NCBI RefSeq assembly: GCF_025666195.1
Contig: NZ_CP102592.1
Coordinates: forward strand, 4,092,001-4,156,000
DNA: 64,000 nt
Origin: Xanthomonas sp. CFBP 8443
GTDB lineage: Bacteria; Pseudomonadota; Gammaproteobacteria; Xanthomonadales; Xanthomonadaceae
Direction: 5' to 3'
The position numbers were made by a program, and so were the translations under genes. Below are positions 886-52,007 of the stretch, one piece after another; the stretch's first letter is position 1, and every line of letters starts with the position of its first letter. The notes below the pieces were generated by a model. That model was given only the letters and a program-made list of their open reading frames with translations, was not told the origin of the DNA and did no database searches.

Positions 886-1797
886 GCGCCGATTGTCGCC
901 GATCCCCCGGCGCGCGCAAACCGGCGCGACGGCGGCAGGACCCGCCGCCGCCCAGCATCGGCAAGGCCACGCGCGCCACCGAGTGCATGCGAATGGCAAC
1001 CGCGTCAAGTAGGGAATTCCCCACACCCCCTGCAGAAAACTCCCGATAGGCAAGTCGGGAGCCGACATCGAAAATGAACAGGCCAGCCGCAGCACCCTGC
1101 GGTCCTACTCCCCAAGAGGCCATCCCCAAGGGAGCTCATGTTGCGGGGCCCTGAGCAAGCCCGTTCGCTGGCACCTGACGGTTCCGGCCTCCCGCCCGCG
1201 TCCACGCGTGGCGGGAGGCATGGATTTGGTCTTGGCCCACTGCTGGCGCCGGATGACGTTGAATCTTGGGCAGAATGCGGTTCGCCGACGACATGGCGCG
1301 GACGCGCGGCAGCCGAAGTCAGGACGGCGCCTGGCGGGCTTGAGCGCTGCGCGCACCCCGCACACGCCTGCCTTACGTCCTTATCCCTTGCAGGAGCGGC
1401 TTCAATCGCGACGAGCGAAGTGTGAGAGGTGCAGACTTCGGACACAGCCTGTCGGGGCTGAAGCCGGCGGCGCAATGCGTTGGGACTGAAGTCACCCCTA
1501 TAGTGCTCCAGCGGCTGGCCGCCAGCTTCCCCTGTGGGAGCGACTTCAGCCGCGACGAGCGCAGCAGCAGACCGCGCAGTATCCGAACAGGACCGCGTCG
1601 GGGCTGAAGCCCCTCCCACACTGTCCCAGCCAGCGAAGCGCGCGGCTATTGCAAGAGCGGTTCCAAGGCGACGATCGCAGCGGCGGACAGCGGCGGATGT
1701 GCCGGTGGCGGATACGGTCCGGGCCGAAGCCCCTCCTACGGTGCACTAGGCCAGATGCCGCAGCCTGCGCAGTACCTCCGGGATCGGCCCGGAAGCA
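886..1797. other. Gene-free stretch with degenerate REP-like palindromes
   Basis: No coding frame here looks like a real protein. The left part (1035-1061) holds a short stem, ctcccga/tcgggag, followed by TTTT when read on the minus strand, so it could end a transcript coming towards mpl. From about 1383 to 1745 there are at least five degraded copies, in alternating orientation, of the window's REP motif (aggagcggcttcagccgcga): around 1392-1412, 1451-1466, 1534-1556, 1597-1620 and 1719-1741. Confidence 0.6.
1383..1745. repeat. Cluster of degenerate REP-like elements
   Basis: Alternating forward (aggagcggcttcaatcgcga, gtgggagcgacttcagccgc) and inverted (gtcggggctgaagcccctcc) copies form a REP array. 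The copies diverge from the sharper pairs near 11.8, 44.2 and 51.8 kb. The array looks old. Confidence 0.65.
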
Positions 1798-19199: not shown

Positions 19200-21260
<2,061 letters not shown>

Positions 21261-21402
21261 ACGGATTAGAGCACGAAACGCGCAGCGTCCCAACTCCGTC
21301 CCGCCATGCGCCGAACGCAGGCCGCTTCGCTGACGCCGATCTGGACGCAGCCACACCCGCCGGCCATGATGCGCCCCCAATCCCGACCGGACACTACCGA
21401 CC

Positions 21403-50631: not shown

Positions 50632-50651
50632 CTGTCGCGGCTGAAGCCGCT
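50632..50651. repeat. Left half of a REP element interrupted by the IS
   Basis: ctgtcgcggctgaagccgct is the first 20 bases of the REP motif. The rest of this REP, cctaca, is found at 51804-51809 on the far side of the inserted element. Joining the two restores a normal REP. Confidence 0.88.
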
Positions 50652-50679
50652 TGTGTCTTACGCAGGTCTATCGTTGAGG

Positions 50680-50832
50680 TGAGAGCGGAGTGCGGCAGGC
50701 CGCTAAGTCGCAGTGCCTCACGAGCACGAGTAGGAGTCAGGGCCGCCGCACTCCGTTTCTCCTGCCAGCAAGCCCGAACAGTTGCCTGAGCCGCGAGCTC
50801 GAACCTACAAGCATGGGCATCGGCAGGAGATC
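50680..50832 (+). ncRNA. Predicted bridge RNA of the IS110-family element
   Basis: Two adjacent stem-loops. Loop 1 is closed by a perfect 10-bp stem (50686-50695 with 50746-50755). It contains aggccgct (50697-50704), matching the left target aagccgct, and gtaggag (50730-50736), exactly complementary to the right target ctcctac (51802-51808). Loop 2 is closed by a perfect 9-bp stem (50758-50766 with 50822-50830). It contains acagttgcct (50778-50787), nearly identical to the right end acagttgact (51794-51803), and acaag (50807-50811), complementary to the left junction cttgt (50650-50654). These are the four guides expected of a bridge RNA. Exact transcript ends are not known. Confidence 0.82.
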
Positions 50833-50864
50833 TCTCGTCCCTGAGTTTACTGCGGAGAACGCCT

Positions 50865-51794
50865 ATGTCTATGCAGCGCTTTGTCGGGATCGATGTCTCC
50901 AAGGCCGAGCTGGTCGTTCACGTCTTGCCGGATGGGCTGACCTGGACTCAGGCCAATACGCCCGAGGGGCACGCCGGCCTGGCCGAACGCCTGGCCTTGC
51001 TGGGATGCGAGCGGATCGTGCTGGAGGCCAGCGGTGGCTACGAACGGGCGATAGTGCAGGTGCTGACGCAGGCTGGTCTGCCCGCGGTCCGGCTGCCTGC
51101 CCAGCGTCCTCGTGCGCTGGCGCACGCGTTGGGACTCAAGGCCAAGACCGATGCTCTGGATGCGCGGTTGCTGGCTGTGGCGGCCCAGTGCATCCACGCT
51201 CAGCCCACCGCGGTGCTCCCTGCGCCGCTGCAGGCGCTGCGCGAACTGCTCCACCTGCGCAGCACCCTGGTCGCCCAGCGCGATGCGCAGCGCCGCTGCA
51301 TGGAGCACGTGACCTGCAAGGCGGTGCGCGACCAATGGCTCGAGGTGATCGCGCTGCTGCAGCAGCGCATCTGTAACGTGTCCCGGCAGATCGCACAGGC
51401 GGGGGCTGCCTGCTCCAGCCTGCCCAAATTGCCTGGGCTTGGCCCGATCCTGCGCGCCACCCTGGCAGCCCGGCTCCCCGAGCTGGGCACCGTGCATCCG
51501 CGCAAGATCATCGCCTTGGTCGGGCTGGCGCCGTTCAATCGCGATAGCGGCCGCTGGCGCGGCCAACGCCGCATCCAGGGCGGACGCGCCGACGTGCGAC
51601 GAGTGCTGTACATGGCCACGTGGGCCTCCATCCGCACCGGCTCCCCGCTGTCACACACCTACGCCCGCCTGACCGCCGCAGGCAAACCCGCCAAGGTCGC
51701 CATTGTCGCGTGCATGCACAAGTACCTGCGATGGCTCAATGCCATTGCCCGAGACCAGGCGCCTTACGCTCCTCCGGAGATCGCTTCTGCATGA
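50865..51794 (+). CDS. IS110-family RNA-guided recombinase/transposase
   Basis: 309 residues. The RuvC-like DEDD catalytic set is visible: Asp10 in VGIDVSK, Glu54 in VLEASGGYE, and Asp96 and Asp99 in KTDALDARLL. The C-terminal Tnp domain starts at LPGLGPILRATLA and carries GLAPFNRDSGRWRGQRR and the catalytic serine Ser255 in ATWAS. All key residues are present and the frame is uninterrupted. The start ATG follows GGAG. The stop codon overlaps the first base of the right-end donor sequence, so the coding region runs practically to the element's edge. Confidence 0.95.
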   Translation: MSMQRFVGIDVSKAELVVHVLPDGLTWTQANTPEGHAGLAERLALLGCERIVLEASGGYERAIVQVLTQAGLPAVRLPAQRPRALAHALGLKAKTDALDARLLAVAAQCIHAQPTAVLPAPLQALRELLHLRSTLVAQRDAQRRCMEHVTCKAVRDQWLEVIALLQQRICNVSRQIAQAGAACSSLPKLPGLGPILRATLAARLPELGTVHPRKIIALVGLAPFNRDSGRWRGQRRIQGGRADVRRVLYMATWASIRTGSPLSHTYARLTAAGKPAKVAIVACMHKYLRWLNAIARDQAPYAPPEIASA

Positions 51795-51803
51795 CAGTTG
51801 ACT

Positions 51804-52007
51804 CCTACAGTGGCAGCACCGCATTTTTGTAGGAGCGGCTTCAGCCGCGACAGAAAAGGCGCGCGCCAGTGATGCCCTATCGCGCAGATTCCGGCCGCGA
51901 GATTCTCGAGGTTCCTTTCAGCCCCGACGGGCTTTACCGGCAACGCATGTCGCGACCGGAGCCGCTCCCACGACACGTCTGCGGCCGCAACGCCCAGGAC
52001 GCAACGC
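51804..52007. repeat. REP copy on the right flank and degenerate REP
   Basis: cctaca at 51804-51809 completes the interrupted REP. An intact inverted copy, tgtaggagcggcttcagccg, follows from 51828, so the original locus was an inverted REP pair like that at 44165. A degraded copy (gcgaccggagccgctcccac) lies at about 51953-51973. No gene in this 200-bp gap. Confidence 0.8.

Follow-up and report, generated by a model that had tools for sequence, protein, structure and literature searches.

An IS110-group insertion sequence that splits host REPs and carries a bridge RNA at its left end

The element, its transposase and its REP insertion sites

The window analyzed here is the whole 64,000-nucleotide stretch G000:C1:4092001-4156000, which lies on one 5.24-Mb contig. 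It holds an IS110-group insertion sequence that runs from a CT at 50650 to a CT at 51802-51803 and contains a single intact gene, encoding a protein of 309 amino acids (Table 1). This protein scored above the cutoffs of both Pfam families, PF01548 (62.9 bits; cutoff, 29) and PF02371 (58.2 bits; cutoff, 21.3), and matched the NCBIfam model NF033542, "IS110 family RNA-guided transposase," with 179 bits against a cutoff of 140. It could be aligned to the known structures of IS621 (8wt6) and ISCro4 (9t56), the similarity to IS621 being only distant (75.5 bits). In this alignment, inspected by eye, D, E, D, D, and Ser were kept in the segments GIDVSK, LEASGGY, KTDALDAR, and RDSGRW, and we take these five to be the catalytic residues. 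For IS621, S241 is reported to be located at the cleavage sites (PMC11208158). Relatives of the transposase include those of Xanthomonas sp. AmX2 (90% identity), a Lysobacteraceae strain, and Stenotrophomonas, and we accordingly regard the host as Xanthomonas-like; a comparison of the element with a plasmid collection gave no match. A noncoding stretch of 213 bp separates the left core from the transposase gene, and the RNA described below lies upstream of that gene; a longer noncoding stretch and an upstream RNA mark the IS110 group versus IS1111.

Table 1. Features of the element and of its bridge RNA (window positions)
Feature	Position	Strand	Basis or remark
Left half of split REP target, GAAGCCG, with core CT	50643..50651	+	Flanks of copies, empty-site alignment
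IS110-group insertion sequence	50650..51803	+	1,154 bp, counting the CT core at both ends
-10-like TATCGT	50669..50674	+	17 bp from TTGACT only after the ends join in a circle
Bridge RNA, two loops and closing GAGAG/CTCTC stem	50680..50836	+	Covariance model, fold, covariation
Target-loop closing stem, 5' strand	50687..50699	+	Bulged A at 50697; pairs with 50743-50754
AGGCCGCT, left target guide (LTG) of the sequence-only reading	50697..50704	+	Bulge, stem, and linker; not a guide
Revised LTG, AAGUCGC(A), predicted	50705..50712	+	Adjoins apical hairpin 50713-50727
Right target guide (RTG), GUAGGAG	50730..50736	+	0/2,000 target permutations as good
Handshake guide, UC	50737..50738	+	Complementary to the two donor bases (GA) preceding the core
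Donor loop	50758..50830	+	Closed by TCTCCTGCC (50758-50766) and GGCAGGAGA (50822-50830); sequence and fold
Left donor guide (LDG), ACAGUUG	50778..50784	+	Seven-mer matches that of the donor
Right donor guide (RDG), AC[CU]ACAAG	50803..50811	+	9 nt read 7 donor bases, CTTGTGT, with 2 nt skipped
Second handshake guide, C	50812..50812	+	Complementary to the target G preceding the core
IS110 transposase, 309 aa, intact open reading frame	50865..51794	+	Pfam, NCBIfam, alignments to structure proteins
Left donor (right end of element), ACAGTTGA with core CT	51794..51803	+	Overlaps the stop codon of the transposase gene
-35-like TTGACT	51798-51803	+	Within the right end of the element
Core CT with right target half, CTCCTACA	51802..51809	+	REP head GTAGGAG on the opposite strand

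Five copies of the element, identical across 1,154 bp, are present in G000 at five places with different flanks, and every one of them splits a REP at RAAGYCG-CT-CCTACA. The left flank is GCTGAAGCCG in three copies, GCTAAAGCCG in one, and ACTGAAGTCG in one, and the core CT and the right flank CCTACA are the same in all five. An earlier reading, made from the sequence of the window alone, had proposed that the natural target is the REP family of the host and that each REP is a potential landing site. The five insertions agree with the first proposal; the genome contains 362 exact occurrences of the 14-mer GAAGYCGCTCCTAC (341 as GAAGCCGCTCCTAC and 21 as GAAGTCGCTCCTAC), so that the second is borne out for about 360 exact sites. 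The window itself contains three intact sites, and the reversed patterns of the 14-mers had no occurrence in G000. The flanks of the copy in the window, when joined, aligned without gaps to an uninterrupted inverted REP pair in genome G186, this join being the best of seven tried; the pair is an empty-site equivalent by alignment, and orthology to the place in the window is not implied.

These copies also bear on whether the element is now an inactive relic, immobile and with a structure that is merely inherited. Some relatives are incomplete (L095, L096, and L037, the last without about half of its bridge RNA), as such a relic might be, and yet five copies are exact over their whole length at five REPs and the reading frame is intact; a relic is very unlikely here, and the element is real and probably active.

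Structure of the bridge RNA

A search for relatives in the named contigs found only 8 loci, so the comparisons below rest mainly on 395 genomes of the family, 56 of which matched at an E value of 1e-40 or better. The relatives compared were 100 stretches, part of the places found, and copy numbers outside G000 are lower bounds, since no more than five candidates were scored in each genome.

When the sequence from 50680 to 50837 was folded singly, an outer stem formed by GAGAG (50681-50685) and CTCTC (50832-50836) enclosed both loops. The fold energy of 50660-50850 had a z-score of -2.47, with 2 of 200 shuffles as good. Among relatives there were 57 distinct left ends, and we aligned 43 of them (42 distinct rows); the unaligned ones were 9 that depart from the GAGAG...CTCTC pattern, L037, in which about half of the RNA is absent, and L040, L101, L110, and L133, which were left out. 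The RNAalifold consensus of the 43 relatives had 31 pairs, with 98.5% of cells paired. Two-sided changes occurred at 17 of these pairs, compared to a shuffled mean of 13.0 (1 of 500 shuffles as high), and the covariation score was 0.458, compared to 0.140 for shuffled alignments (0 of 500 as high). The number of further pair types, 31, was not above that of the shuffles (397 of 500). In the closing stem of the target loop, 11 of 12 consensus pairs showed two-sided changes. The invariance of the outer stem arises partly by construction, since the segments were cut by the GAGAG...CTCTC pattern.

A covariance model (R1) was built from 19 sequences of other, related clades, with none from the REP-targeting clade. 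In the window it matched 50680-50836 with 85.5 bits and an E value of 3.9e-20, the next match having an E value of 0.27, and across G000 it matched the five copies of the element and nothing else at an E value of 0.001, with 150 of 4,605 first-look candidates scored. These results indicate that 50680-50836 is an IS110-group bridge RNA whose structure is supported by covariation; the limits are those of the RNA structure, not mapped transcript ends. They uphold the two adjacent stem-closed loops of the sequence-only reading and their order, target loop and then donor loop, and they supply the covariance search that it had suggested as a check. Rfam 15 at gathering score had no family matching the bridge RNA region. 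Elsewhere in the window, the Rfam matches were an sX11 sRNA at 1080-1227 (+) and a TPP riboswitch at 21158-21262 (-), with no others.

Guides of the target and donor loops

For the target loop, all columns were compared with all target positions in a guide-free scan of 60 distinct element/target pairs, contributed by 38 elements that fall into 10 clusters; copies were omitted if their right end was unreadable or their left flank contained masked letters. Diagonals of the RTG (columns 48 to 59) ranked 1st to 6th and those of the LTG (columns 24 to 32) 7th to 9th, so that the RTG already named in the sequence-only reading stood at the top of the scan as well as in the permutations of Table 1.

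The donor and handshake guides were counted with one copy per element; 106 of the 132 parsed copies have distinct flanks. The RDG segment ACAAG or ATAAG follows a left end of CTTGT or CTTAT, respectively, in 46 of 53 elements, which sustains the ACAAG first proposed, and the guide extends further past a skip of two nucleotides. With this skip, 33 of 52 cells were paired (0 of 2,000 permutations); a skip of three gave 22 of 52 (43 of 2,000), and other skips gave 7 to 15. For the window, GUAGGAGUC and the right junction, GACTCCTAC, are exactly complementary. The LDG had been given as acagttgcct. Its seven-mer ACAGTTG is sound, the guide and donor seven-mers being the same in 50 of 52 elements, three of which have ACGGTTA on both sides, while the final cct varies independently of the donor: the three letters after the seven-mer matched the donor in 50 of 118 cases, for which the permutation mean was 45 and 140 of 2,000 permutations were as high. 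For the handshake guide UC, pairing of the first base with donor base 7 was seen in 50 of 53 elements (A-U in 17/17, G-C in 33/36). The second pairs with donor base 6 in 30 and fails or is unreadable (base 82) in 23, and the base after the RDG pairs with target position -1 in 36 elements and fails or is unreadable in 17. The sequence-only reading missed the handshake guides and the split of the RDG. Its claim that all four guides are present thus holds as it stood for the RTG and RDG, with an LDG that was three letters too long and an LTG that was misplaced.

All four guide pairings of IS621 are reported to include the core dinucleotide (PMC11208160). In the element studied here, the predicted RTG and RDG pairings include it. 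The LTG would read the core C and has an A opposite the core T, and the tail of the LDG does not follow the core, a CT being found there in 11 of 52 elements. The LDG of IS621 itself is described as ending at the core C (PMC11208158), and we therefore regard the shortfall as a variation and not as an exclusion.

The LTG had been placed at aggccgct, which resembles the REP. Its A is bulged, and its GG lies in two covarying pairs, 19-66 (GC/CG) and 20-65 (GC/CG/AU) of the alignment; both the fold and model R1 extend the stem of the target loop through GGCC. Its CCG is invariant in 43 of 43 rows, and it does not track targets, with 664 and 852 of 2,000 permutations as good without and with wobble. 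Because its stem pairs are compensated, its CCG is invariant, and it fails to track targets over the clusters, this segment is not the LTG. The revised LTG did track them over the 10 target-loop clusters: in the register of the REP clade 13 of 2,000 permutations were as good (2 of 2,000 with wobble), and in the register of the other clades, 0 of 2,000 (1 of 2,000 with wobble). A register one column closer to the hairpin gave the better fit for all five clusters with the RTG GTAGGAG (5.00 to 7.67 of 8 versus 1.00 to 2.33), and the opposite register did so for all five other clusters (6.67 to 8.00 of 8 versus 2.00 to 4.62). We therefore place the LTG of the element, as predicted from these sequence comparisons, at AAGUCGC(A), where a match of 7 of 8 needs one G-U wobble. 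Since the original register matches better in the window's own cluster, the error was invisible from one sequence: complementarity within a single sequence can misplace a guide when a REP-like segment lies partly in a stem.

Within the GTAGGAG clade, the mutual information was highest between column 26 and target position -3, column 29 being fourth (4 of 5,000 permutations), and stem column 20 also correlated with target position -5. This measure singled out no column, because close relatives share history, and the cluster permutations and the availability of REPs were used instead. At target position -3, the guide and target letters of 49 copies with distinct flanks were C/C in 28, U/T in 9, U/C in 8, G/G in 2, C/T in 1 (L030, the right end of which is unreadable), and U/G in 1 (L034). 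For elements with a U in the guide, 5 of 12 copies in four Xanthomonas-type genomes were on T, compared to 0.51 expected from REP availability (P = 8e-5). The excess persisted when one imperfect site was dropped (4 of 11; P = 9e-4) and when the count was confined to exact 14-mer sites (3 of 9; P = 0.005). Availability was counted from exact 14-mers only, and 3 of the 12 copies were at deviating sites (left halves AAAGCCG and GGAGTCG; right half CTCCCAC). A U can form a regular pair with A and a wobble pair with G, so that under the revised guide T should be met more often than REP availability would give; the left-guide U, tolerant of wobble, is found with C as well as T targets. For elements whose guide has a C, none of 22 copies in five genomes was on T, compared to 0.26 expected; T-type REPs make up just 0 to 2% of the sites in these genomes, so this half of the comparison says little.

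The same evidence weighs on the sequence-only version taken as a whole, in which the bridge RNA is the same, the LTG is AGGCCGCU (50697-50704), and the LDG includes a core-reading CCU. With wobble counted, that LTG scores 7.71 matches out of 8 against the target in the cluster of the window, compared to 6.46 for the revised one, and 6 compared to 5 in the L036 cluster. It nevertheless contains the two compensated stem pairs, does not track targets across the 10 clusters, and sets an invariant C opposite target position -3, where the U-guide elements exceed expectation on T; the CCU tail matched the donor about as often as permuted tails did. We consider this version very improbable. Related copies had been expected to show guides and flanks that change together, and this was found for the RTG, the RDG, the first handshake base, and the revised LTG, and not for the LTG first proposed.

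Proposed cycle, relatives, and known systems

The element is thus very probably an IS110-group insertion sequence with a left end encoding a REP-reading bridge RNA and with a cycle like that of IS621. By analogy with IS621, it would excise as a circle in which the right and left ends are joined as ACAGTTGA-CT-TGTGTC, and the joined ends would form a promoter (-35 TTGACT, 17 bp, -10 TATCGT) driving transcription of the bridge RNA, which the transposase would then bind. The target loop would read the REP, the LTG AAGUCGC pairing with the bottom strand in the palindrome arm and the RTG GUAGGAG with the top strand in the REP head, and the donor loop would read the circle junction with the LDG ACAGUUG and the RDG AC[CU]ACAAG. 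Strand exchange, presumably catalyzed by the transposase as in IS621, would take place at the CT core and be assisted by the handshake bases UC and C. At the left end of the integrated element, GCCGCT stands in the place of the -35. At a spacing of 17, the -10 place in 53 elements of shared descent has A in 53, the final T in 50, and the first T in 33; the match is 4 of 6 here and 2 to 4 of 6 over all elements, as raw counts. The native promoter of IS621 is reported to arise in its RE-LE junction (PMC11208160), and the joined ends here would likewise fit a promoter made by the circle junction.

IS621 of E. coli is also described as having a bridge RNA with a target loop followed by a donor loop, a CT core, a REP target, a 9-nt RDG that reads 7 donor bases with two flipped out, and handshake guides (PMC11208160, PMC11208158), all as in the element studied here; the REP family and the guides differ, and the RTG is 7 nt here versus 4 in IS621. 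Like this element and its companion in G000 described below, ISPpu9 and ISPpu10 of Pseudomonas putida are reported to have all copies in host REPs and to share one REP family (PMC1525189); this likeness is by description, and they differ in that both insert at the same REP position, whereas the two cores here are three bases apart. A guide RNA is also reported to pick the target of the IS1111 elements ISPa11, ISKpn4, and ISPst6 (seekRNA), the first of which targets a REP and the other two attC sites; in these, unlike here, the RNA lies downstream of the transposase gene and the target matches come in another order (PMC11187229). That IS110 elements target REPs has long been known (PMC1525189), and covariation of guides and targets over many IS110s is already published, as is retargeting of IS621 by a change of the RNA alone (PMC11208160). 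In the literature searched, no paper joined IS110, Stenotrophomonas, and bridge RNA. The kind of system is known, and our additions to it are the present member with a corrected map of its guides, the test at a single base, and the shift of the left guide.

In a tree of 39 transposase rows, the GTAGGAG-targeting elements formed one group (support, 97/93) and those with attC-like targets another (100/100). For the three relatives tested, the guides fit repeats that are abundant in the proper host: ACGTCGCTCCTAC occurred 22 times in G117 and 0 times in four other genomes, GAAGGCGCTCCTAC 46 times in G147, once in G000, and 0 times in three others, and GGCGTGGATCTACT 64 times in G277 and 0 times in four others. 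AGTAGATCCACGCCATGCGTGGAT is reported as a Stenotrophomonas REP (PMC2817692), and its first 14 bases are the reverse complement of the target in G277.

Could the transposase protein, or the shape of the hairpin, recognize the REP instead, the left-end RNA being a structured leader that regulates the transposase mRNA? Two distantly related IS110 elements of G000 do use the same REP, and the ISPpu9 transposase of P. putida is reportedly regulated by two small RNAs and by structure in its 5' untranslated region (PMC8450116). Against this, targets shift in step with RNA segments among relatives, another clade has an attC-like target with matching guides, and the reading of the REP is asymmetric, with one flank of the palindrome as the target. 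Such recognition is extremely unlikely.

With the bridge RNA as the reader of the target, we lean toward the view that this IS110 clade follows the REP families of its hosts. Its right guide would keep a GTAG-type head and its left guide would be rewritten for each palindrome arm, a related clade would have been retargeted to attC-like sites, and the left guide of the REP clade, which is placed one column closer to the apical hairpin than its counterpart in the related clades compared, would have moved one base toward that hairpin and consumed a one-nucleotide linker. The shifted left guide, if true, is a small structural variant of the target loop. Natural series of guides and targets, some of them one base apart, should make rules of bridge RNAs (wobble, register, handshake) readable from genomes.

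A second IS110 element of G000 is found at six places (L015 to L020, at C1 positions 84588, 795224, 840119, 2520484, 3427459, and 5201025), and its transposase is 31 to 32% identical to that of the first. It splits the same REP three bases rightward, at GAAGCCGCTC-CT-ACA (flanks of five copies, L015 to L019). Its left end follows the same grammar, with the LTG AGTCGCTCCT beside the hairpin, the RTG TGTAG with handshake AT, the LDG ACGGTAT, and the RDG AT[CC]ACAAG, and model R1 detects it weakly (L015; E value, 0.019).

The clade with attC-like targets, in which the RNA is also upstream, comprises L046, L050, L123, L136, L141, and L152 to L156. Its sites read CTAACGC or CTAACAC, CT, and GARTTAAGC and are attC-like by sequence, with membership in integrons not implied; the guides match these sites (LTG, e.g., ATAACGCCT; RTG, AATTCAG or AACTCAG). 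L037 and L150, which are one place in G246, keep both ends and have about half of the bridge RNA absent, including the RTG and LDG, so that this copy is perhaps movable only in trans. L095 and L096 are incomplete copies of close relatives in G214, in pieces of 54 and 85% identity. A more distant clade (L049, L116 to L122, L144, and L145) has the left end CTTGTATG, the donor ACGGTTACT, and the right target CTCAG; its copies show, by eye, little consensus in the left flank, and its left guide may be short or relaxed.
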